A DNA stretch of 23,666 nucleotides from a virus, in IMG/VR virus record IMGVR_UViG_3300019889_000231, positions 1 to 23,666 of that record. One strand, 5' to 3'. Shown one piece after another: positions 2,046 through 22,858 of this stretch; within the stretch, counting starts at the first letter, position 1, and each line of letters starts with the position of its first letter. Both the position numbers and the translations under genes were made by a program. The notes beneath the pieces are model-generated. The model was not told where the DNA came from and did not search any database. It was given only the letters and a program-made list of their open reading frames with translations.

Positions 2046-2241
2046 CGATGTCCCTCCCTAGCTTGTAGTTGTCGGCCTGCTGTGCGCTGAATGGGTGCTC
2101 GACTGAACCCGTGTAGTGCGTCTCCCCGCCATCCCGGACTCCAAAGCATCCGGAACAATGGCCGAATGGCGAATTGGCCATATCGCTCCCGGTAGCCGGC
2201 TGGCGCGGCACCCACGGCTTCTCAACTCGCTTGCGCTTCAT
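2020..2241 (-). CDS. Small protein of unknown function, 73 aa
   Basis: A short gene with a strong ribosome binding site (AAGGAG 7 nt before the ATG), which is the main reason to accept it. It overlaps the end of the methyltransferase gene by 20 nt and the start of the next gene by 26 nt, typical of coupled phage genes. The N-terminus is basic (MKRKRVEKPW), and a Cys-His cluster (HCSGCF) lies near residue 28. The acidic C-terminus ends in ATEVE. No family is recognised. Confidence 0.6.
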   Translation of the reverse strand: MKRKRVEKPWVPRQPATGSDMANSPFGHCSGCFGVRDGGETHYTGSVEHPFSAQQADNYKLGRDIDAIATEVE

Positions 2242-3418
2242 CGAAAGACTCCTTCAGCCTTCGCGCTATCAACTCCGGAATTTGGGGCACGACAGAATTG
2301 CCGAGTGCTTTAAGCCGGTTGACGCGCTCTGGGACTCCGTGGGCAACTCTGGGAATATCCGGCTCCTGAATCCAGTGCCTCGCACCTACTCCACCACCGT
2401 CCAATTCGGCGGATAGCCCATCAACCATTCGACCCATAGGGGATTCAGCGATCCGCTGCCCTGTCTCGCCTGAGTCGCGTGATCCAGCCGGTCGTTGTGC
2501 CGGCTTCGCCCATTCTTCCGGGTCAACGCCGCTGGCGATGATCCCTTGTGCATCGTGGAGCATGGCGTCGGCCAAGTCCTCACGGCCGTCTGAAGATTCG
2601 GGCCGCCATCCCCATGTAGCCCTGCTCCCGTGTGACAATTCCCGTGCGGCGTAGGCCACTTGTAGTGACTGTTCGGATTGCCACGCACCGCTTGAATCAA
2701 GTCTCCCCGGCCGCCCCTGTCCGCATCCGCGCTGCGTATCGTCGGCCACATCCGCTCCCCCGTCACAGCCACCTCGCGCAGACTCAAGCCACGCTTCCCG
2801 TCCGGCATCCTCGCCCCACCAGCTACGTCGCTCGCCTGCGGGGTAGGCCACAATCCAGATACGGTCCCGCTTGTGCGGTGCGCCAACGTCGGCAGCGGAT
2901 ATAACCTGCCATTCCGCGTCATACCCGATTTCGGAAAGGTCTCCGAGTACTCGCCCCATTCCCCGTCCAAGCAGAGCTGAGACGTTTTCCAAGAGCGCGA
3001 AGTCGGGTCGTAGTTCGCCAATGATGCGACAGGCATGGAACCACAGTCCGCTGCGTTTTCCGTCGATTCCGGCGCGGAGTCCTGCGTTGCTGATGTCCTG
3101 ACACGGCCAGCCGGCGCAGATGCCGTTGACTCGGGCGAGGTTTCTTGCTCCAGCGAATCGCACGTCTGTGACTCGTCTATCTGCATCGGGAAAATGCCTC
3201 CGTAGGACTTGTCTGCAATACGCATTCTTTTCAACCTGCCAGACCGTCCGAAACCCAGCTCGTTCAAACCCGAGATCAAAACCGGCAATTCCGGCAAAGA
3301 GACTGCCAATCGTTGGCCTCGCGGGTTTGGCGTCAACGCAGAGCGTGCAACAACATGGCTCATTTAGGCAGCCTTGACATATTCCGCAAACCCCACAGTT
3401 ACCAGAGCGGGTCTTCAC
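2222..3418 (-). CDS. DNA (cytosine-5) methyltransferase
   Basis: A 398-residue enzyme that should move a methyl group from S-adenosylmethionine to carbon 5 of cytosine. Visible motifs in order: motif I IGSLFAGIAGFDLG (37-50), motif IV with the catalytic Cys in AGWPCQDIS (C106), motif VI LLENV (142-146), motif VIII APHKRDRIWIVA (180-191) and motif X RLKALGNSVVPQI (368-380). Residues 8-27 add an unusual Cys-rich stretch. The region between VIII and X, where target recognition should lie, has repeated VAY/VAD/LAD segments instead of a well-folded-looking domain. The start is GTG, overlapping the previous stop as GTGA. It probably protects phage DNA from host restriction. A second long frame covers the same DNA (see 2386-3363). 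Confidence 0.9.
   Translation of the reverse strand: MKTRSGNCGVCGICQGCLNEPCCCTLCVDAKPARPTIGSLFAGIAGFDLGFERAGFRTVWQVEKNAYCRQVLRRHFPDADRRVTDVRFAGARNLARVNGICAGWPCQDISNAGLRAGIDGKRSGLWFHACRIIGELRPDFALLENVSALLGRGMGRVLGDLSEIGYDAEWQVISAADVGAPHKRDRIWIVAYPAGERRSWWGEDAGREAWLESARGGCDGGADVADDTQRGCGQGRPGRLDSSGAWQSEQSLQVAYAARELSHGSRATWGWRPESSDGREDLADAMLHDAQGIIASGVDPEEWAKPAQRPAGSRDSGETGQRIAESPMGRMVDGLSAELDGGGVGARHWIQEPDIPRVAHGVPERVNRLKALGNSVVPQIPELIARRLKESFDEAQAS
2386..3363 (-). CDS. Overlapping reading frame inside the methyltransferase gene
   Basis: A 325-codon frame on the same strand, in another phase, wholly inside the methyltransferase gene. It begins with ATG, has AAGG 8 nt upstream, and has no stop for 978 nt. 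From about residue 83 its product looks like sequences often found in or beside phage cytosine methylases: DYNP-like YDPTSRSWKTSQ, then FPKSGMTRNG, four WPTP-type motifs (residues 172, 206, 236, 264), and LNPLWVEWLMGYPPNW at 306-321. Both frames therefore look family-like over the same bases. It may be a real overlapping gene, the product of programmed frameshifting, or a composition shadow that has become conserved. I recall the family from memory; the sequence alone cannot show expression. Confidence 0.45.
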   Translation of the reverse strand: MSHVVARSALTPNPRGQRLAVSLPELPVLISGLNELGFGRSGRLKRMRIADKSYGGIFPMQIDESQTCDSLEQETSPESTASAPAGRVRTSATQDSAPESTENAADCGSMPVASLANYDPTSRSWKTSQLCLDGEWGEYSETFPKSGMTRNGRLYPLPTLAHRTSGTVSGLWPTPQASDVAGGARMPDGKRGLSLREVAVTGERMWPTIRSADADRGGRGDLIQAVRGNPNSHYKWPTPHGNCHTGAGLHGDGGPNLQTAVRTWPTPCSTMHKGSSPAALTRKNGRSRHNDRLDHATQARQGSGSLNPLWVEWLMGYPPNWTVVE

Positions 3419-3663
3419 TGGATGACCACCCGCAGCGGTGACGTTTCCAGCATCTCGCGCATCACCTGCTTGCGCTGCTTACCCATGCGAACGTGCGCCA
3501 TGCGGCGCCGGTTCTCGTTGTCCAACTCCATAAACATGAGTGCGTGCTTAGGACAGTAAATTGAGTCTCCGGTAATTAGCTTGTGGCAGTACCGTGCTCG
3601 CCGCTTGTCGTTACCCTTGACCAGCTCCCACTCGCATCCGGCATTCAGTTGGCTCTTTTTCAT
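3415..3663 (-). CDS. Small Cys/His protein, probable zinc binder
   Basis: An 82-residue protein. I chose the ATG at 3661-3663, with GGAGG 4 nt upstream, over an upstream in-frame start that lacks such a site. Residues 9, 25 and 37 are Cys, with His at 26 and 40 (AGCEWE, RYCHKL, IYCPKHA), suggesting a single zinc site. The second half is basic and rich in Arg, Lys and Met. The end overlaps the methyltransferase GTG by 3 nt. It may bind nucleic acid; no family is recognised. Confidence 0.65.
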   Translation of the reverse strand: MKKSQLNAGCEWELVKGNDKRRARYCHKLITGDSIYCPKHALMFMELDNENRRRMAHVRMGKQRKQVMREMLETSPLRVVIQ

Positions 3664-3774: not shown

Positions 3775-5454
3775 TCATTGCGCTTTCTCCTTGGGTGGCT
3801 TGTAGGGAATCAATGGGGGCACCTTGCGCGGTCCTACAGGGCATCCGCATGGCTCTAATCGCAGCGAGCCGTCACCATCTATCGGCTTCCAGTACACCGG
3901 GCGGTGCGGTTTGCCAGCCTTGGTCTCAAACTCCGTCTTGCGTACCTGCTCGTCGTCATCGTCCCCGGCTTCGGAGTTGATCCCGATCGACCACTCCGCC
4001 CAGCCATGAATCGCGGAGGCGCCGCGGATGCGATTAAACAACGGCCCATCGGTGTTCTTGTTCAGGTGGTGAATCAGCGCTACCTGGCATCCGGATTCAT
4101 GCTCGATACGGGTCAATCCGGAAAGCACCTTGGCAATCTGGGAGTTGTCGTTTTCATCTCCCAGATGCAGCCGGCGAAACACATCGAAGACCGCAAACTC
4201 GATGTGGAAGTCACGCAGGGTTTCGATCATCGCGTCCAGATGCGCTTCCTGGTCCAGATAAAACTCCGGACACTGCGCCACGCTGCTGTAGTACATCCAA
4301 CCGTTCACATCGGAGGTGCAGCCCTTGCCGGCCAGCAGCCGTTTGTAGCGGGGAATCGTAGTCTCCGGATGATCCTCGCGGGATACGTACATCGTCTTGA
4401 CCCGCCGCTCGATGTCGATCCCCAGCCAAGGCTCACCGGAAGCCAGCGATAGGAGTAGATCCAGCACCGCAAGACTCTTGCCGACTTTAGGATTGGCGAC
4501 AATCAATCCGTTGGCGCCAGAGTGAATTACTCCCGGAATGATCCAGGACGTATGGTCTTCGTAGTTGGCAGCAAACTCCGAAAACTCCACTGCAATGGCA
4601 GGCTTTTTGGGCAAGAGGAGATCCGATTTCAGCAGGTCTTTTGCGGTGCGAATGCGCTGTAAAAGCTCTTCCGGCTTGTGCGTCTCCAGGTAATCGTAGA
4701 CATCCGCCTTCTCCGGAAGGTCTTCGAAGTCAATGGACCGGATGGACGCGACCGGGTACTTGCTGACGCTGGCCAACACTTCATCGCGATGCCGGCGCCC
4801 TGATTCGTCGTTGTCCACCAGAACGACAACGTTCTTGCCGGCAAGGTAAGCGGAATAGGCGTCCTGCCAGCTTCCCGCACCATTCGGGGTGCAGGTTGCC
4901 ACCATGTACAGTTTGCCGCTGGCCTGCCATTGCGTGCGATTCAGTCGGTCGGCGGCCTTCTCTCCCTCGACAATCAGCACCGACTGCGCCGTGACCACGC
5001 TGGGCAGGTTGTACAGCACCTTCGGCCTCGTTCCTTTCCACTCCCAACCTCCCCCCGGAGCGGGCTGGCGGAATTGGAAGGTTTTGTGATCGTCCTTAAT
5101 GAGCCGGTATTTTTCGAATAGGAGCCTCCCTGACGCGTCGAAGTAGGAATATGAGGCTTGGATACCTTTCCTCAACAGCAACGCGCCCAGCGGGCAGCCA
5201 GTGGCCCTGGCGACGGTCTCTACCGCTTGCTCCCATCCGCAGTTCGCAATAAGCATCTCCAGTTTGATAATTCCACCGCCTTGTGCGCACTTGGAATGGC
5301 AGTACCAGAGGCCGGTGCGGAGATCGAAAGCGAAATTGGGGTTCTTGCCGCTGTGGATGGGGCAGGCGGTGCGGAACCTGTGGCCGGACGAGGACCGCTT
5401 TCCGCCGAGGGCGCGGGCGGCATAGGTTTCTATTTGTGCAGGAGTGAGTTCCAT
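3775..5454 (-). CDS. Phage primase-helicase (CHC2, TOPRIM, RecA-like ATPase)
   Basis: A 559-residue replication protein combining primer synthesis and DNA unwinding. Residues 31-63 form the primase zinc finger (C31, H34, C52, C56). A TOPRIM domain follows, with VLIVEGEKAAD (E164) and VVVLVDNDESG (D214, D216), the metal-binding residues. Residues 305-470 form a RecA-type ATPase: Walker A ANPKVGKS (320-327), Walker B FAVFD (420-424) and LIHHLNK (460-466), like the RepA/AAA_25 helicase group. The ATG at 5452-5454 shares one base with the initiator stop (TGATG) and has AGGA upstream; the 13 extra codons upstream are initiator sequence. It should act with the initiator directly before it in the operon. 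Confidence 0.9.
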   Translation of the reverse strand: MELTPAQIETYAARALGGKRSSSGHRFRTACPIHSGKNPNFAFDLRTGLWYCHSKCAQGGGIIKLEMLIANCGWEQAVETVARATGCPLGALLLRKGIQASYSYFDASGRLLFEKYRLIKDDHKTFQFRQPAPGGGWEWKGTRPKVLYNLPSVVTAQSVLIVEGEKAADRLNRTQWQASGKLYMVATCTPNGAGSWQDAYSAYLAGKNVVVLVDNDESGRRHRDEVLASVSKYPVASIRSIDFEDLPEKADVYDYLETHKPEELLQRIRTAKDLLKSDLLLPKKPAIAVEFSEFAANYEDHTSWIIPGVIHSGANGLIVANPKVGKSLAVLDLLLSLASGEPWLGIDIERRVKTMYVSREDHPETTIPRYKRLLAGKGCTSDVNGWMYYSSVAQCPEFYLDQEAHLDAMIETLRDFHIEFAVFDVFRRLHLGDENDNSQIAKVLSGLTRIEHESGCQVALIHHLNKNTDGPLFNRIRGASAIHGWAEWSIGINSEAGDDDDEQVRKTEFETKAGKPHRPVYWKPIDGDGSLRLEPCGCPVGPRKVPPLIPYKPPKEKAQ

Positions 5455-6215
5455 CAGTCCTGCTCGTCCATGTAGCTCTTTGCGTTGAACCACGTTGCCG
5501 GATGCGGGATGAAGTGCTGCTCTTTGGCCTGGAGCTTCTGTTTGACCTCTGGGCTGGCTGCGTACTCCTCCGTCTTCGCCAGCAGCACTTCGTAGGCTTC
5601 CTGGGCAGGAAGGGCTTCCGTGAAGTCGCCTTTGTAGATTCCCATCAGGGCGGCTCGGATGGCTTTGTGCGCTGTCCCTCTCGCCTTCTTCCGGGGGTAC
5701 GCCTGGTAGATCCCCTCCACCTGCTCATCCGAGAACGGGATTTCTCTTTTCTTGGTCGTGAGACCAAGAGAGAGATTCTCTCTCTTAGAATAAGAGGTAG
5801 GAATTACCCTTTGGGGAATTCCAATGGAATTACCCTTTAGGGAGTTCGCGATTTCCACCCTGGCGATCAAATTCTCCCAATTGAGGGAGATGTGCTTCAC
5901 GGTATTTGTGTCGCGTTTGAACACATCCGTGATGATCAAACCGCGCTTTTCCAACTCGGCGCAGCAGCGGTCAAACTGTTTCGGTGACATGCAGCACTCG
6001 TCCTGCCATTGCTCCCGGAAACGAGCAATCCAAAGGCGGCCGTCTCGCTCCACGTCATGCTTGGAATTGCCTGTTCGGTCGGGAAGGAAGTAGTAGACGA
6101 TCTGGCTGAGGAGTACGCCGGCTGCGATGTCGCCGGCTATGTCGATGTAGCAACGCTTCACGTCGATCACGTCGCGTGAAGAACGTTCCCAAGCAATAAA
6201 GTCATTGGTAAGCAC
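5454..6215 (-). CDS. Phage replication initiator, winged-helix plus C-terminal domain
   Basis: A 253-residue protein of the phage replisome-organiser type. Residues 15-45 (DVIDVKRCYIDIAGDIAAGVLLSQIVYY) match the start of many phage replication winged-helix proteins; residues 60-100 contain a recognition-helix pattern (MSPKQFDRCCAELEKRGLI). After a linker, residues 168-253 form the C-terminal domain with YPRKKARGTAHKAIRAAL and the HPATWFN motif common to phage initiators. It should bind the origin and recruit helicase. The likely start is GTG at 6213-6215, behind a GAGAGGA site 9 nt away. The linker DNA carries iteron-like repeats. It is the first gene of the leftward replication operon, directly before the primase-helicase. 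Confidence 0.8.
   Translation of the reverse strand: MLTNDFIAWERSSRDVIDVKRCYIDIAGDIAAGVLLSQIVYYFLPDRTGNSKHDVERDGRLWIARFREQWQDECCMSPKQFDRCCAELEKRGLIITDVFKRDTNTVKHISLNWENLIARVEIANSLKGNSIGIPQRVIPTSYSKRENLSLGLTTKKREIPFSDEQVEGIYQAYPRKKARGTAHKAIRAALMGIYKGDFTEALPAQEAYEVLLAKTEEYAASPEVKQKLQAKEQHFIPHPATWFNAKSYMDEQD
5749..5890. other. Candidate replication origin inside the initiator gene
   Basis: In the linker part of the initiator gene lie two 17-bp direct repeats that differ at one base: GGAATTACCCTTTGGGG (5800-5816) and GGAATTACCCTTTAGGG (5826-5842), 26 bp apart start to start. They are flanked by inverted repeats: CTTGGTC/GACCAAG with a 4-nt loop (5751-5768), a 9-bp AGAGAGAGA/TCTCTCTCT (5767-5785) and TCTCCC/GGGAGA (5873-5890). 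Lambda-type phages keep their origin, with iterons, inside the initiator gene between its two domains; the layout here is the same. Function is inferred. Confidence 0.45.
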
Positions 6216-12849: not shown

Positions 12850-13082
12850 GCCTCACGCATGAGCCGCACTACACACCAATTGAGCTGGGCGAAATATGGC
12901 ACTTGTCGCCAGCGATGATTCGCAAAGTCTTCGAGAACGAGGATGGCGTCCTCAAATTCGGAGAACTGCCACCAAGAGTTGGAAGAAAACTGAAGCGCTC
13001 CTACCTGACAATGCGTATCCCCTATTCGGTCGCGGAACGGGTCCACAAACAGCGGTCTACCAGACGGAGACTACGCGCCTGA
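12846..13082 (+). CDS. Excisionase-like small DNA-binding protein
   Basis: A 78-residue basic protein. The ATG at 12846 has AGGAG 5 nt upstream and overlaps the preceding stop. Residues 9-50 (YTPIELGEIWHLSPAMIRKVFENEDGVLKFGELPPRVGRKLKRSYLTMRIPYSV) match the MerR/excisionase winged helix: a start like YTPxELGExWxLSxxxIRKxFxxE, then a beta wing, then RIPxSV. The tail RVHKQRSTRRRLRA is very basic. It ends 26 nt inside the 3' end of the convergent integrase gene. Size, fold and position fit a recombination directionality factor. Confidence 0.65.
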   Translation: MSLTHEPHYTPIELGEIWHLSPAMIRKVFENEDGVLKFGELPPRVGRKLKRSYLTMRIPYSVAERVHKQRSTRRRLRA

Positions 13083-14310
13083 TGTGGGCATCATCCAGAG
13101 CCTTAACAAATGGCGCGTAATGCAGGTAGATCATTTTAGTGTCCACATGCCCCATCATCCGGGCAAGTTCTTCAGGTCGCTGTCCCGCAATAAGCTGTCG
13201 CACCGCAAATGTGTGACGCAGCATTTTCACGTTTGCATCCTTGGTCTGAACCTGTCCCCGCTTATCCCGTGTGGGTAGCTCGACGTATTCGATGCCAGCA
13301 GCATCGAGCACCGCAGAGACGCGCTTCGACCACTTCTCCTGGTCGTGCCTAAGCTTCAGTCCATCCGTCCGGAATGGCATCTCCGCAGTTGTGCCAGACT
13401 CCAGAGGAATATCCCGCAACTCTGCCGCCAGCGCGACGGAGATCGGGATCACCGCTTGCACGCCGGTCTTGAGCCTCTTGTACCGGTATACGTAGACCTT
13501 TCGTTTATCGACCATGGTGGCCTCGATCCTGCTTACTTCGAACAGCACGGCGTCGCTCACATCTGCTCCGGTATGGAGCAACAGATTAATGAATGCTCGC
13601 AACCGTGGAGCGTAGTTGCCTCTTCGAGCGATAGGCAAATTGCGGGGCATACTTGATTCCACGTTCGCAAACATGTCAGCTACCTGTGCATCGGTGTACG
13701 GTCCCTGAACGTGGTCGCCGTCCACCTTCGACCTATGGATGCTGGCGGCCGGGGATTGTTCAAGAACGCCGCGTTTCTCCCAAAACAAGAACATAGTGCG
13801 AACGCAACTCCACCTCTGCGCCTTCGTTGACGGCGCGTAATGGGACCACGCCGACGACGAGTACCAGCGTTCAAGATGCAGGGGTGTGATGCCTTGGACG
13901 TACTCAATTCCATGACGCTCGCCCCAGACGATCAACTTCCCCTTGAGAGTGACGTACTGCGCGATAGTGCTCGAAGTCTCTCCAAGGTCACGCTTCCGAC
14001 TTTCGATGAATAGCTTGCAAGCGTCCAAGATGGTCATCCGTCCGTGATCGCGTTTCGCGGAGGTCGCCCGCGCCGCCGCGATCTCTGGGTCCATACCACG
14101 CAGCGCATCGGATGCCATCCGCTCCGCCTCACTCCATCTCGGCGTGTTCAGAGATTTTCGGCTCTGTCTCCCAGTTTCCCTCCTCCAGAGGTAAATCCAT
14201 TTCGGACAGGAGCAGGTGTTGTATTCGGGATCACTGGCGCGTGAACAGTCAACTGAGTGCCGGGTGTATGCCCTCACGCTGCCATGCGCGGACTTCTGAA
14301 GGTTTTTCAC
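13057..14310 (-). CDS. int: Tyrosine recombinase (phage integrase)
   Basis: A 417-residue integrase if it starts at GTG 14308-14310; a TTG at 14356-14358 is possible, and neither has a clear ribosome binding site. The N-terminus has a Cys-rich arm-binding-like part (VDCSRASDPEYNTCSCPKW); the core-binding domain spans about 90-195. Catalytic residues by motif: K281 (RLKTG), R365 in the KMLRHTFAVRQL box (K362 where His is usual), H388 (MMGHVDT) and Y398 (LHYAPF). The first catalytic Arg, expected in TGxR, is Asp (HTGAD250VSDA). The substitution could disable or alter the enzyme. Position next to an excisionase-like gene supports a phage integrase. Confidence 0.85.
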   Translation of the reverse strand: MKNLQKSAHGSVRAYTRHSVDCSRASDPEYNTCSCPKWIYLWRRETGRQSRKSLNTPRWSEAERMASDALRGMDPEIAAARATSAKRDHGRMTILDACKLFIESRKRDLGETSSTIAQYVTLKGKLIVWGERHGIEYVQGITPLHLERWYSSSAWSHYAPSTKAQRWSCVRTMFLFWEKRGVLEQSPAASIHRSKVDGDHVQGPYTDAQVADMFANVESSMPRNLPIARRGNYAPRLRAFINLLLHTGADVSDAVLFEVSRIEATMVDKRKVYVYRYKRLKTGVQAVIPISVALAAELRDIPLESGTTAEMPFRTDGLKLRHDQEKWSKRVSAVLDAAGIEYVELPTRDKRGQVQTKDANVKMLRHTFAVRQLIAGQRPEELARMMGHVDTKMIYLHYAPFVKALDDAHIRRVVSVW

Positions 14311-14402
14311 AGCGGCAGGATAGCACCAACGTCCGGCCAGCGTACACAAAAATCTCAATTAGCGTGGAACCCCTATGCCTATTGAGTTTTACGCGAGCCG
14401 CA

Positions 14403-17608: not shown

Positions 17609-18509
17609 GCACAAACCGTTCCTTCCCCGGCTCCATCCCCGCATGACACTCCCGCTGGTAGACGCACGGGATCGGGAAGTCGCAGGTAGACAACTGCTGG
17701 TCCGGTAGCTCCGTCATGCCGGCCAGCCGCTCCAGCTTCCGCGCTGCCATGTCCCGCAATCTCTGCAATTCCACTTTCCCCGGCACCGGGATTTCCACCT
17801 TGAAACACACATCGCGAAGCACATCATCGTCCAGCATGGTCTGGAGCCACACCATGCGATCGATCTCGGCGCGGTCCTCCCTCCAGATGCGCTCCCAGGT
17901 GTCCCTGAAGTCTTCCGTGGTGGTGTGCTTCACCTTGCGGAATCGCAGCTTGTGATTCGTGGGATGGAGTAGCCCTTTCGTCCAGGGAGAATGGCGCCTG
18001 CCATCGCGCTGCACTCCCAGAATCAGGACCACCTGCTGCATCGGCATCTCGTAGGCCGCCACTTCTCCCAGCGAGTACCAGGAGCGGATCTCGGAGTAGT
18101 GACGATCGTCAGACCAGGAAGAAGCGAGCACGACCCTGCGTAGACGCGTTCCAGAGGGGTCAAGAAACGCTCCGGAGGTCCATCCTGTACTCAGAGGCTC
18201 CGGACGTGTCCACGGCTCTTCTCCGGGCTTCCTGATGGCGCTGGAGGTGATGTCAGCCAGGCAACTGTGATGCACGGCAGAATCGTAGATCTGATGCGAA
18301 TTGGTCTGCATCCCACGGTCCTTGGCGAGTTGCATGATCTCTTCGCCAGCCACCTCGCCAAAGTCGGTACGTTCGGCTTCCGTCACCGCGGCGGCGATCG
18401 CAGCCTGCAACATCTGTGTGCCATCCAGTCTGATGCGCTCCCAGTCGCGACCCCAGTACGCTCTTCTTTGGCACTGCTCGTAAGCGGATAGCAGGGATGC
18501 GGTGCTCAC
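17583..18509 (-). CDS. Fe-S nuclease-like phage protein, degenerate PD-(D/E)XK
   Basis: A 308-residue protein with the Cas4/AddB cysteine layout: one Cys near the N-terminus (LLSAYEQC13QRRAYW) and three at the C-terminus (C276, C282, C288 in TCDFPIPCVYQREC). The N-terminal SxxxxYxxCxRxAYW helix is also typical. The middle (SEIRSWYSLGEVAAYEMPMQQVVLILG) resembles the nuclease strand and the Q-x-x-Y-like helix, but the expected ExK is EIR, so catalysis may be lost or altered. The GTG overlaps the stop of the gene before as GTGA. It is beside the virion genes and may be an end-processing or packaging factor. The family call is inference. Confidence 0.5.
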   Translation of the reverse strand: MSTASLLSAYEQCQRRAYWGRDWERIRLDGTQMLQAAIAAAVTEAERTDFGEVAGEEIMQLAKDRGMQTNSHQIYDSAVHHSCLADITSSAIRKPGEEPWTRPEPLSTGWTSGAFLDPSGTRLRRVVLASSWSDDRHYSEIRSWYSLGEVAAYEMPMQQVVLILGVQRDGRRHSPWTKGLLHPTNHKLRFRKVKHTTTEDFRDTWERIWREDRAEIDRMVWLQTMLDDDVLRDVCFKVEIPVPGKVELQRLRDMAARKLERLAGMTELPDQQLSTCDFPIPCVYQRECHAGMEPGKERFVRIEAAGRT

Positions 18510-20848
18510 TGTGGTGCGGTTGATCCTGTCTCGATATCAAAGTGGGGCCTCAAGAGGTCTCTGGCTTCTTTGCGATTCTGCACCGGCTGATTCCCGACAG
18601 AGCCTGCTGCAAGAAACGCCGCTATCGCCGGAGAAACAGGAATGCCCTTCGCCTGCGCTTCCTTTGCTATCGCAGAGATGCTGCTGATAATCGTCACACC
18701 ATCCGCGCCGGGAATCTTTCTGAGCGCTGCCAGTTCTCCAGGAGGCGGCTGCGAAAGAAATTTCACTACGCGTGGATTCTCCAGAACCTTCTGCGCAAAC
18801 GCCTTGCCGCCCACATAGCTAGCCGCTCCAGCACGAAACACTACCGAGTGGCCGCCCCCATGACCAAGCACGTGCATGATCTGACCCACGATTGGCTCAA
18901 GGATTGCCGAAGAGGTCAGAATAGCGGCATCGTAGCCGGTGAAACCCCATGCCCTGGCACGCTTGTAAATCGCTTCTTCCCGTAAAGCTACTGTGTCTAC
19001 CGTGGGCTTCTCTATTGGCGTCAACTCGGGATTCGAAGGCCGTCCTTTCATCTTCGGCGGGTCCGGCAACTTTACCTGCGGCGCCCGCGGGTCCGGCGTA
19101 TCGACTGGAGGTTTCGGTAACGGCTTTAGTCCGGCACGCAACCTTTCTTCAGTCGGCATTGCCTTCAGCTTCGCCCGTGCCGCCACTACCCCCTTGTAGT
19201 CCTCAACCAGCGAAGGATCGTGCTTGGCTGCGGCATCCAGCCGCGCCTGCTCCTGTCGCTCCGTTACCGCATCCGCGTTAGCGTCTCCCTTGCGCTCACC
19301 CATCACGGTACGACGCGGAGTCCGCTCTTTCCCAAACGCTTCCATGTATTCGCGGGTCGCCTTCACGCCTCTTTCCAACTCAGGCGCGATGCCCAGTTCA
19401 ATCGCCCCTCTCGTTCGAGCCGCATTGAGCGACTTCAACACCTGTTTCATCTCTCCCAGCTTCACGCCTTCATACTTGCCGTCCGCGATGTTCTTTCCAA
19501 TAATCGACGTGGCGCGATGAATGTCTTCGAGCGAGGTCTTGACCCCTTTTTGGGGATCGAAGTCGATAGGCTCTGGTTCGAAGCCGTTGGACGCGGCAAT
19601 CTCGTCAATCTTGGCGCGACGTTCGGCTGGCAACTCCCAATAGTCGCCCTTGTAACCCTGGCTCTGCATAATCGCGGCCCGATCCTGCGCGTACAGGGAA
19701 TCTGGTGCTGCATCTTCCGCCGATGCGGTGATGTGTCGTAGCTCGCCGGCCGCTTCGGAATTGCGAGCGCTGATCTTTTCCAGATCCCCTGCAAGCCGAT
19801 CCACATCCACCGGAGTCTTTGCCTTCTCATGAAACGGTTCCCACTCCTGGTCCGTCGCCTTCTTCACGCTGGCTGCGGTGGCGTCTTCCTTCGTGAAGTA
19901 CGCATCCGTCTTTGCCTTCAGGTCGGCCTCTGTCTGCCGGCGAAGATCAAGCGTCTGCTCTGCGCCCTGGTTCAACTCCTGCACGCCCTGGTGTTCGGTC
20001 GCGTGAGTATCGACGGCCTCTTTGTTCTGCTGACGCACCCTGCCTACAGCCTCCTGGTGCGTCGCGGCCGCCTCCTGCTGTGCCTCCAGAGTGTCGTAGG
20101 CGTGCTCCATGTTCGCTTCCTCGTTACCCCGCGTAGCCTCGCGGATCGAGTCTGCGTGGCCTTCGACTGCCTGCCGGTTCTTCACACTTGCTGCCTGAGC
20201 AGTTTCATTCCCCTTCCTTACAGCGCCACGCACCTCATCAGCCACCACACCCCTGCCAGCACCGGCAATCACCTGCCCTGTACCCCGGAGATTGTTGGTG
20301 GCCACTCTACGGAAGTTCTTAATAGTCTTGCCTGCTGTTGCCCCGAGGACCGCTTGACCAACAAAGTTGCCGGTCACATAGGCGGGATGGTCAATCGCAA
20401 ATTGACCCTGCTCCGCCAACTCCTGCGTACCTTTCAGGTTTGGAACAGGCACCGGGATTCCACCCACGTTGCGATACGTCGGCATCACGTTCCGTATTTG
20501 CTTCAACAGTCCGGTTGCAAAAGATTCAATTGGATGCGCCAGCACTGCCTCGCCCGCCTGGGCGATACCCGTTGCAAACTGCTCAAGCTTGCCACTGAAA
20601 TCGTGCCGGTCTTCCTTGGCCCCCGGAGCAACGGACGCGTCCATCTTTCCCTGCACGCCTGCAACCTGTGCCCGCATATTCGCAATGAATCCGGGCGGCT
20701 TGGTGGCAGTGAGGTCTACAGAGTCCGCATAATTCGGATACTTGTCCAACACCTTCCTGCCGATCTCCTCATCGGACATAGAGCCGTACTGGGGATACTT
20801 GGTCTTGATCTTCTGACCGAACTGCGAGAGAGACATTTTGTCGGGCAC
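18506..20848 (-). CDS. Large virion-associated protein, 780 aa
   Basis: The N-terminus (LSQFGQKIKTKYPQYGSMSDEEIGRKVLDKYPNYADSVD) is a short repeat-like motif (IKxKYPxYxxxxDxxIxxKVLxKYPxY) found at the start of many phage virion and ejection proteins. Residues 200-340 are Ala/Glu/Gln-rich and helical, probably a coiled coil. Residues 620-760 hold several weakly hydrophobic Gly/Ala helices (DAAILTSSAILEPIVGQIM, ITIISSISAIAKEAQA-like). A role as internal or ejection protein that enters the cell with DNA is likely but inferred. The GTG at 20846-20848 has GGAG 8 nt upstream; an ATG four codons later lacks one. Confidence 0.55.
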   Translation of the reverse strand: MPDKMSLSQFGQKIKTKYPQYGSMSDEEIGRKVLDKYPNYADSVDLTATKPPGFIANMRAQVAGVQGKMDASVAPGAKEDRHDFSGKLEQFATGIAQAGEAVLAHPIESFATGLLKQIRNVMPTYRNVGGIPVPVPNLKGTQELAEQGQFAIDHPAYVTGNFVGQAVLGATAGKTIKNFRRVATNNLRGTGQVIAGAGRGVVADEVRGAVRKGNETAQAASVKNRQAVEGHADSIREATRGNEEANMEHAYDTLEAQQEAAATHQEAVGRVRQQNKEAVDTHATEHQGVQELNQGAEQTLDLRRQTEADLKAKTDAYFTKEDATAASVKKATDQEWEPFHEKAKTPVDVDRLAGDLEKISARNSEAAGELRHITASAEDAAPDSLYAQDRAAIMQSQGYKGDYWELPAERRAKIDEIAASNGFEPEPIDFDPQKGVKTSLEDIHRATSIIGKNIADGKYEGVKLGEMKQVLKSLNAARTRGAIELGIAPELERGVKATREYMEAFGKERTPRRTVMGERKGDANADAVTERQEQARLDAAAKHDPSLVEDYKGVVAARAKLKAMPTEERLRAGLKPLPKPPVDTPDPRAPQVKLPDPPKMKGRPSNPELTPIEKPTVDTVALREEAIYKRARAWGFTGYDAAILTSSAILEPIVGQIMHVLGHGGGHSVVFRAGAASYVGGKAFAQKVLENPRVVKFLSQPPPGELAALRKIPGADGVTIISSISAIAKEAQAKGIPVSPAIAAFLAAGSVGNQPVQNRKEARDLLRPHFDIETGSTAPQ

Positions 20849-22858
20849 TTAGAGGACTCCCAGCGGATCTTTTGCGGCATCGGCCGGCGTGTTCGCCTTA
20901 GCCTTGTCCCTCAGATCGCCGGGAGTGGAAGTCTTGTAAGTGTCCACCGTTTTCTGTGTCGCTTCCAACTCGCCCCTTGCGGATTCCAGAAACATTTGCG
21001 CCTGCTTCTCGCTCATCGTGCCGGAAACAATCCTGGCAAGGCCGCCTTCCAGCTTCATCGTGGCACCGCCCACATTGTTGACTAGCTGGATCTCAAAGTC
21101 CGATATACGACCCACTCGACCACGCAACCACGACATCACAATGCCCTGCGAAGTAACGGGATTAAAATTATCCACGGCACTCTTTACGCTTTCGTATGAA
21201 GTATTGGCGAGATCCCTGGCCTCTACCGCCTTTGTGTAGGCCGGGGTGATCTTCTTGTAGGGCAGGACTCGACCACCGGAGGGCTTGGCTCCGCCACCTG
21301 CGGGACTACCTCCACCACCTGCGGGACGCACCGTTTGCGTTGGAGCTGCGGGAGAGCCGTCAGCCGCAGACGAAGGCGCATGGGGAAATTTCTTCTCGCT
21401 GGCAAAAAACATCCTCTCTATATGGGGAGTGCCATCTAGGTCCGTGACCACCATATCGCGCCATCCCGTTCCGCTTGGAGTCTCCATCTCCTTCTTCTTC
21501 ACTATCGCAGCCGTTACCATATCTTCGGTGTAGCTTCCATTCGGCACACCGGGATTCATGGCACGCAAGAGCGTCCTGAATTCAGAATTCGACTCCGGCG
21601 CTGCCTTCGGTGGCGGAGGCGCGTATCCCGCCGCCATCAACTGATTGCGATGGTTCCCCTCAGCATCGATCTGTGGCTCTGACCATGTACCGTCTGCATT
21701 CGGGAATGGAGCGCCATTCCGTTGCCACCTGTCTGGCTTGTCTGCCGTGGCTCCAGGTTCGAGCTTGGCATGAATGCGAGCCGCCTGACGCTCTTCATCC
21801 GGCGTCAGTAGCCTTGGGAGGGGTCTAGGACCGCTCGCCGCCATCAGGTTGGCCTGCGCCTGTGCCATTAGCTGCTGGCGCGTCTGCGGGCCTTGTACGG
21901 TCCCGTATTGGCCCTGTGGAAGAGATAGGGAATCTCCCGGCATATCCAGCGGCGTGGGGTTGGCTGCAGCCATCGGATCGCCATTTTGGTCGGCATCGTA
22001 TGACGGTGCATAGACTGCATTCGCGCTGCCGTCATTTGTATACGCATGGGTTTTTCCAGCGTATGCGTTTGCCTCTTCAGCCGACTTGAAGGTGCCTAGA
22101 TGCTGTCGGGTTTGCCCGTAGTAAGCAGTAGCTGCATCTTCTAGCTGGCTCATCCCTGATTTATCTGGCATCTTGCCGTTGGCTGTCAGGAACTTTCCGT
22201 TCGCAATGGAGGGTACGAGTGCATACCCGGTGACACCCGGAGATCCCCAGGCTTGCGGAGAGCCGTCCTTGCCAACCGGCACCGTCATGCTAAAGATGCT
22301 GCTGCTACTGCCATCATCGTTTTTAATGCCGGGGCGGTGATTGACATCAATGTTGCCCCTCTGCAGCATTCCGGGGATGAGTTGACCCGCTAAGGGTCCA
22401 GTCTGGTAAGAGGTCGAAAGTTGACCTGTACCTGTCCTGGGGGGAGCGGACGGTGCCGCCCAGGAGGGTGCAGCCATCTTTTGCGGCGCAGCCTGAAGCT
22501 GCATCGCCGGAGTAGCGCTGATGGTCGGCGGTCCAGGCTGTACTGGCGGAGGCGCCGCGTGGTATCCCGGCACATGATCCAGCAACATGTGGCCGAACTT
22601 CTGCATTGCTGTGGGATTCTTGCTGGGATCGAATAGCTGGGTACGCGCCTGGATCGCATTCTTTAGTCCCAGACTCGCTTCTTCCCAGTCTTTAGTGTGC
22701 GGTGTCGTGAGAGCCAACTGCTTACGAAATCCAGTGATGTTGTCGTTGGCGTCACCAACGTTCAGTTGGAATTGCTCGTCGGACAGAGCCTGCTTTTGCA
22801 GAGCGCTGGCATTGGCCCGGTCCATCCCATAAGAAAACCCTGTACCGAATGCTCCCAT
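20849..22858 (-). CDS. Virion-associated protein with GNID-type domain, 669 aa
   Basis: Residues 168-275 hold a domain known from many phage internal and structural proteins: GNIDVNHRPGIKNDDGSSSS, then YALVPSIANGKFLTANGK and YYGQTRQHLGTFKSAEEANAYA; relatives read GNIDLxNRPxVxNxDGSIST...HLGxFxxxExAxxYA. The stretch 100-160 is Pro/Ala/Gln-rich and flexible, and 505-545 is Gly/Pro/Ser-rich; the last 140 residues are helical. It ends right before the next virion gene (TAA, then GTG). It is probably a particle component or ejection protein. No signal or membrane segment is seen. Confidence 0.6.
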   Translation of the reverse strand: MGAFGTGFSYGMDRANASALQKQALSDEQFQLNVGDANDNITGFRKQLALTTPHTKDWEEASLGLKNAIQARTQLFDPSKNPTAMQKFGHMLLDHVPGYHAAPPPVQPGPPTISATPAMQLQAAPQKMAAPSWAAPSAPPRTGTGQLSTSYQTGPLAGQLIPGMLQRGNIDVNHRPGIKNDDGSSSSIFSMTVPVGKDGSPQAWGSPGVTGYALVPSIANGKFLTANGKMPDKSGMSQLEDAATAYYGQTRQHLGTFKSAEEANAYAGKTHAYTNDGSANAVYAPSYDADQNGDPMAAANPTPLDMPGDSLSLPQGQYGTVQGPQTRQQLMAQAQANLMAASGPRPLPRLLTPDEERQAARIHAKLEPGATADKPDRWQRNGAPFPNADGTWSEPQIDAEGNHRNQLMAAGYAPPPPKAAPESNSEFRTLLRAMNPGVPNGSYTEDMVTAAIVKKKEMETPSGTGWRDMVVTDLDGTPHIERMFFASEKKFPHAPSSAADGSPAAPTQTVRPAGGGGSPAGGGAKPSGGRVLPYKKITPAYTKAVEARDLANTSYESVKSAVDNFNPVTSQGIVMSWLRGRVGRISDFEIQLVNNVGGATMKLEGGLARIVSGTMSEKQAQMFLESARGELEATQKTVDTYKTSTPGDLRDKAKANTPADAAKDPLGVL

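Follow-up and report, generated by a model that had tools for sequence, protein, structure and literature searches.

The locus described here raises the question of whether a single segment of viral DNA, read in two frames of one strand, supplies two conserved proteins, and what enzyme these proteins would form. The window, meaning the whole stretch of DNA that was analysed, is a virus record of 23,666 bases with a C5 methylase locus on its minus strand. This locus probably encodes a two-polypeptide C5 DNA methyltransferase made from nested genes, whose products would be paired like those of M.EcoHK31I.

Two open frames and the distribution of methylase motifs

The longer frame, ORF0 (2222..3418, minus strand, 398 aa), is the candidate catalytic (alpha-like) subunit of the methyltransferase, and its GTG start overlaps the stop of a 101-aa ORF upstream. 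It matches PF00145 with E=3.8e-42, the match being confined to residues 37-194, and is also assigned to the C5 DNA methyltransferases by NCBIfam and PHROGs (phrog_363, 245 bits). The second frame, ORF2 (2386..3363, minus strand, 325 aa as listed), is the candidate specificity (beta-like) subunit and is nested wholly within ORF0 in the +1 frame. The preliminary description of this DNA had reported a second frame of 325 codons with an ATG and a possible ribosome site, and this was borne out: AAGG lies upstream of the putative start ATG (3361..3363, minus strand). An alternative putative start, the ATG of codon 60 (3184..3186, minus strand), is preceded by GGAGG. No family match was found for ORF2 in Pfam or NCBIfam; its match to phrog_1008 (102 bits) confirms the tie to phage methylase-related proteins that the preliminary description had proposed.

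According to the established C5-MTase nomenclature, five motifs can be located in frame 0, all on the minus strand: motif I (SLFAGIAGFDLG, 3269..3304), motif IV with the catalytic Cys (GWPCQDIS, 3089..3112), motif VI (ENV, 2981..2989), motif VIII (RDRIWIVAY, 2843..2869), just past which the constrained frame of the relatives changes, and motif X (ALGNSVVPQ, 2282..2308). P105, C106 and Q107 of motif IV are invariant in 64 homologues, and E144 and N145 of motif VI and G373, N374 and P378 of motif X are likewise invariant in homologues. The earlier statement that all methylase motifs are intact in the main frame is correct for these five but not for motif IX, the counterpart of which is in ORF2. 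Because single-chain C5 enzymes carry motif IX in the same chain and ORF0 lacks it, ORF0 is not classed as a single-chain enzyme. The catalytic motifs and motif IX are instead found in different open frames, as in a two-polypeptide C5 enzyme.

The motif IX-like segment of ORF2, LNPLWVEWLMGYPPNWT, is located at 2398..2448 (minus strand). With the motif IX profile of single-chain C5 enzymes, the best match in ORF2 falls exactly at this end of the protein, as a short and weak profile-profile match (probability 10-17%, E 0.0015-0.003); the canonical pattern used for comparison is RRLTP..E..R.QGFPD.WT. The ORF2 sequence LNPLWVEWLMGYPPNW in this segment shares its DNA with ESPMGRMVDGLSAELD of ORF0. 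In the window, ESPMGRMVDGLSAELD is a shadow of motif IX, because the conserved frame-0 pre-motif X segment, WIQEPDIPRVAHGVPERVNRL (2312..2374, minus strand), is distinct from it and sits 3' of the ORF2 stop. W349 of that segment is invariant in homologues, and E352 and P353 are conserved in at least 90% of them.

Four WPT(P/I)-headed modules of ORF2 (2563..2850, minus strand) represent the proposed target-recognition region, where only ORF2 is constrained in relatives. The motifs WPTP, WPTI, WPTP and WPTP start at residues 172, 206, 236 and 264, respectively, and their spacings of 34, 30 and 28 match the 28-34 residues given in the preliminary description. Their DNA encodes VAY190, VAD224, VAY254 and LAD282 in ORF0; together with LNPLWVEWLMGYPPNW over ESPMGRMVDGLSAELD, these motifs confirm the remark that the same DNA is read twice. 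At the other end of ORF0, a Cys-rich N-terminus (GNCGVCGICQGCLNEPCCCTLC, 3347-3418, minus strand) precedes motif I and is possibly metal-binding (AF2 pLDDT 50-55).

The AF2 model of ORF0 is confident at residues 31-195 and 371-397, the block from residue 371 having pLDDT 81-96. Residues 218-346 have pLDDT<50, and the recognition region has values of 33-46. Aligned with VIA to M.HhaI, the model gave Z 25.9 and rmsd 2.2 over 213 residues of the 327-residue chain, and Z 23.8 was obtained for M.HaeIII. The likeness to both enzymes concerns the large-domain fold; they differ from the window in that the recognition domain and motif IX are within a single chain. According to the model, ORF0 would consist of motif X and the equivalent of the M.HhaI large domain, and would lack the small domain. 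The structure of ORF2 was predicted with AF2 from 68 natural sequences, and the model is poor (mean pLDDT 58), apart from hairpins over dual-coding zone 1 (block pLDDT 62-80). ORF2 residues 1-109 are mostly of low confidence in this model and are perhaps untranslated. No PDB match was obtained when the model, too poor for searching, was compared by VIA-align with 8 chains. Apolipoprotein E matches of the ORF2 profile against PDB sequences (E 0.14-0.69) were taken as chance.

Conservation of the second frame and the location of constraint

A long second frame could be no more than a side effect of the codons chosen for ORF0 in G+C-rich DNA, without ever being translated, since the preferred codons for VAYP read WPTP in the +1 frame and ORF0 alone gives an ORF2 profile score of about 75 bits. 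Shuffles were therefore made in which synonymous codons are swapped and the protein and codon usage of one frame are kept. When the ORF0 protein was preserved, 4.7 stops were expected in the ORF2 frame and 0 were observed (P(0)=0.0005); 4 WPT motifs were observed against expectations of 0.24 for the whole span or 0.75 past motif VIII, and at least 4 were present in 0/4000 shuffles, for the whole span and the post-motif VIII part alike. When the ORF2 protein was preserved, 10.6 stops were expected in the ORF0 frame, which was stop-free in 0/4000 shuffles. The +2 frame contains 15 stops across the ORF2 span.

The same can be seen in relatives, although their lack of ORF2-frame stops is partly by construction, the regions having been bounded by open frames. 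After removal of near-duplicates (157 to 138 loci), ORF2 profiles were cross-validated by training on half of the loci and testing on the other half, with the window kept out of training. The ORF2 profile score exceeded that of 50/50 frame-0-synonymous shuffles in 137/137 loci. In the window, it reached 236-242 bits, whereas the shuffles averaged 76-80 and peaked at 98-111. The test was also split at motif VIII, for which 99/138 loci with the motif VIII landmark were kept. ORF2 exceeded 30/30 shuffles in 89/93 loci for the N part and 95/95 for the C part, and ORF0 did so in 93/93 and 93/95 loci, respectively. Additionally, the signal of the second frame persists in loci with 44-50% GC. All of the shuffle tests, the retention of the signal at this lower GC content and the inverted substitutions past motif VIII described below refute codon choice as the origin of ORF2 for the family, and this origin is extremely unlikely. 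By these comparisons, neither frame can be explained as a consequence of the other.

The C part of ORF0 in the window itself is not above shuffles, with 15.6 and 29.5 bits against means of 18.8 and 20.2 (maxima 34.7 and 32.8). Because frame 0 of the window past motif VIII scores like shuffles, the support for an alpha subunit in this part consists of its openness, with no stop where 5.3 were expected (P(0)=0.0005). This lack of sequence conservation, along with broken copies elsewhere (L087/L088 and L254), would also be expected if such a system were decaying into a pseudogene in the window. However, neither frame is interrupted there, contrary to expectation, and each checked motif is intact; decay is very unlikely.

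Substitutions were counted in 40 non-overlapping pairs of relatives with 70-97% DNA identity; the rates describe these relatives, the window itself being without a close relative for such a comparison. Changes silent in ORF0 only (SN) and in ORF2 only (NS) were distinguished. Upstream of ORF2, the SN and NS rates were 0.252 and 0.065 per site, and in the overlap as far as motif VIII they were 0.245 and 0.057. Past motif VIII, the overlap had SN 0.064 and NS 0.277, and downstream of the ORF2 stop the values were 0.28 and 0.038. Since the two rates invert past motif VIII and revert past the ORF2 stop, the constrained frame of the relatives runs from 0 to +1 and back to 0. Measuring constraint in both frames, as had been proposed, accordingly found both frames constrained, mostly in different segments.

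With finer bins (38 pairs, 2/40 having been dropped; 188/221 loci with the motif VIII landmark kept), two doubly constrained zones, some 45 and 30 codons long, can be distinguished. Zone 1 extends over about 16-60 codons ahead of the end of motif VIII, and its SN is ~0.135 compared with ~0.30 upstream. It corresponds in the window to ORF2 SLANYDPTSRSWKTSQLCLDGEWGEYSETFPKSGMTRNGRLYPL over the motif VI-VIII region of ORF0 (2893..3024, minus strand). Zone 2 comprises the final 30 codons of ORF2, including motif IX. Between the zones, constraint in relatives acts on ORF2 alone, and the N part of ORF2 outside zone 1 is weakly constrained. The suggestion of dual coding is thus upheld insofar as ORF2 is conserved and constrained, in shuffles and substitutions, well beyond the demands of ORF0, but it is confined to these two zones. 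Outside them, one frame is for the most part simply kept free of stops. Homologues with a broken or unconstrained second frame had been named as evidence against dual use: constraint is present in relatives, but a frame is broken in some loci (L012, L087/L088, L116 and L139). Taken at the level of sequence, these comparisons demonstrate that both frames are conserved and constrained, that the constrained frame switches at motif VIII and at the ORF2 stop in relatives, and that frame 0 is open through the recognition region.

Proposed initiation of ORF2 and the frameshift alternative

The constrained frame along the DNA follows the path that programmed frameshifting would produce. A single ribosome would read motifs I-VIII in frame 0, the recognition region and motif IX in +1, and motif X after a return to frame 0, yielding a single chain; frameshifting to swap the recognition region had also been suggested in the preliminary description. 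Several observations do not fit this path. Constraint on ORF2 already rises 16-60 codons upstream of the junction at motif VIII. Starts consisting of an ATG and a Shine-Dalgarno sequence were counted upstream of it in 140 loci over a span of fixed length, as counting that ends at stop codons inflates the contrast (306 vs 117 ATG). In the +1 frame, 79 were found vs 52.7 (sd 5.2) expected, and in the +2 frame 21 vs 26.6. Stops of the +1 frame upstream of the junction are depleted (79 vs 184 expected). The openness of frame 0 through the recognition region would be needless for a shifted path, and the fused relative L171 retains the zone-1 segment as protein, placed after motif VIII. Frameshifting is therefore unsupported and quite unlikely, and separate initiation of ORF2 is favoured because of the excess of +1 starts and the constraint on ORF2 upstream of the junction.

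Gene layouts in relatives and the proposed enzyme

Of 50,697 phage records searched by tblastn, 464 contained sequence resembling ORF2 and 1442 contained sequence resembling ORF0. For ORF2, 80 loci were kept from IMG/VR. In GTDB, 80 loci were obtained for the ORF2 of an Acinetobacter phage, with record titles naming Acinetobacter, Pseudomonas, Verrucomicrobia, archaeal MAGs and others. Both proteins were matched in 171/174 loci, of which 166 have the two overlapping in +1 phase, 3 in phase 0 and 2 without overlap. Motif classification of 336 sequences (335 loci and the window) assigned 233 to the nested form and 19 to a split form in which the +1 frame contains both motif IX and motif X. Motif IX was not found by regular expression in 46/336, although it is visible by eye in L005, for example. 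Smaller numbers have no catalytic part on the locus (11/336), motif IX in +1 with no motif X found (11/336), or motif IX in +2 (5/336). A clean fused form exists in L171, where a single chain of 723 aa holds motifs I-VIII, a domain resembling ORF2 in which several WPTP-type motifs occur, motif IX and motif X. The preliminary description had supposed that the frame in use may vary among relatives, and nested, split, fused and canonical forms do all occur.

Five further sequences that the classification labelled as fused (L077, L240, L266, L287 and L335) look like indel-shifted copies. An apparent indel puts motif IX in the frame of motifs I-VIII in L240, L287 and L335, and leaves motif X in a different frame in L287 and L335. 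In L170, about 850 extra bases (about 2747 to 3595), perhaps an insertion, part the catalytic region from motif IX. In the more distant methylases L089, L090 and L092, a motif IX-like sequence is seemingly in +1 and motif X is in frame 0, and judging from these loci the nested arrangement may reach past the ORF0/ORF2 family.

Since the relative sets were mostly selected by ORF2 similarity, a separate set of 80 loci was picked by motifs I-IV of frame 0 only. In this set, ORF2 reached at least 100 bits in the +1 frame in 59/80 loci; this threshold was used because a 25-bit cut-off (76/80) is unspecific, frame-0 shuffles reaching about 75 bits. A canonical motif IX was present in frame 0 in 5/80 loci, each with less than 50 bits for ORF2. 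These data bear on whether ORF2 has a function of its own, for example as an inhibitor or anti-restriction factor, and merely overlaps a complete methyltransferase. The lack of Pfam and NCBIfam matches for ORF2 would suit such a role. However, frame 0 is without motif IX and the small domain, a canonical frame-0 motif IX and a strong ORF2 never occur together in the 80 loci, and in fused or split relatives ORF2 sequence is continuous with motif X or with motifs I-VIII. An independent function is considered unlikely. The two-subunit model is supported, because the fused relative L171 and the split relatives carry the same parts.

In the proposed two-subunit enzyme, the alpha-like ORF0 would contribute the catalytic large domain with motifs I-VIII and the motif X helix, and its long, probably disordered linker would occupy the usual position of the small domain. 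The beta-like ORF2, read in the +1 frame, would have its own start within ORF0 and bring what the linker lacks, namely motif IX and a recognition region of WPTP-headed modules. The two chains would then pair into one active enzyme, as in M.EcoHK31I. We infer that each frame is translated, that the products associate with one another and that the target sequence is determined by ORF2. This recognition role of the nested frame is directly testable.

In multispecific phage methyltransferases, tandem recognition domains set the methylated targets. Among 190 relatives, 0-5 copies of a WPTP-like motif precede motif IX, and motif IX follows the first copy at a median distance of 41, 78.5, 115 and 174.5 residues for 1, 2, 3 and 4 copies, but of 144 for the 5-copy loci (n=2). 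These distances suggest a recognition region built from repeats. It is conceivable, though doubtful, that ORF2 is a stand-alone specificity subunit of WPTP modules of roughly 37 residues, whose number and order may set the methylated sequences; the overlap would then be old, with constraint alternating between the frames. A tie between module count and number of targets is speculation.

Among known split enzymes, M.EcoHK31I recognizes YGGCCR and M.AquI recognizes CYCGRG, and the gene for the small subunit of M.EcoHK31I lies inside that for the large one in a different frame. In PMC3404938, motifs I-VIII and X and a predicted recognition domain are assigned to the large polypeptide of M.EcoHK31I and only motif IX to the small one, and the small polypeptide of M.AquI is given motifs IX and X. 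M.EcoHK31I is termed naturally split in PMC3439449. The window would share this motif layout, its large frame carrying I-VIII and X and its small frame carrying IX. The predicted recognition domain of M.EcoHK31I is in the large subunit according to the same text, whereas in relatives of the window constraint points to the small nested frame. Because the constraint of relatives past motif VIII belongs to ORF2, the window is likened to M.EcoHK31I but not filed in its type. It would resemble M.AquI in having two polypeptides with motif IX in the small one, and the 19 split sequences also place motif X there; it differs in that the large frame carries motif X, past the ORF2 stop, and the overlap is almost complete. 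The locus would be assigned to the naturally two-polypeptide C5 methyltransferases and to no narrower type, as a form with a recognition region partitioned unlike the published M.EcoHK31I prediction.

Three annotated pairs of overlapping or adjacent 'DNA methylase' genes, Toaka gp83/gp82, KingMidas gp69/gp70 and K1G ORF31/ORF30, are frames of the ORF0/ORF2 family with the same +1 relation. The mycobacteriophage pairs (Toaka and KingMidas) are split, whereas the window is nested. K1G belongs to a different branch, and its motif IX reads LNPAHSRWLMGYPQEW. No prior report of a dual-frame methylase family was found in open-licence PubMed Central, including the accessible portion of PMC3711429. A different hidden frame, an endonuclease within a phage methylase insertion, is described in PMC11855218 and is not the ORF0/ORF2 arrangement. 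The nested layout is widespread among viruses and bacteria, but annotation often keeps frame 0 only, calls copies pseudogene or partial, or lists the second frame as hypothetical. Overlap is penalised in the annotation of Paenibacillus phages, as PMC6070908 states, and such a penalty may account for ORF2 often being missed. Protein databases may consequently lack the probable specificity half of methyltransferases from many phages and bacteria. The locus, as a probable naturally split enzyme whose relatives are fused, split or nested, also offers material on the origin of overlapping genes and on shifts of constraint between frames.

In E. coli chromosomes, L254 (2498-3259) and L256 (1363-2532) are annotated as pseudogene or partial methyltransferases; a stop lies nearby in both frames of L254, and both frames are present in L256. 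Elsewhere in the window, two adjoining large ORFs on the minus strand (18506-20848, 780 aa, and 20849-22858, 669 aa) have no PHROG match at 1e-3. Genes for an HNH endonuclease (489-1313), a primase/helicase (3775-5493) and an integrase (13057-14358), all on the minus strand, were identified by PHROGs, and these fit a temperate phage.
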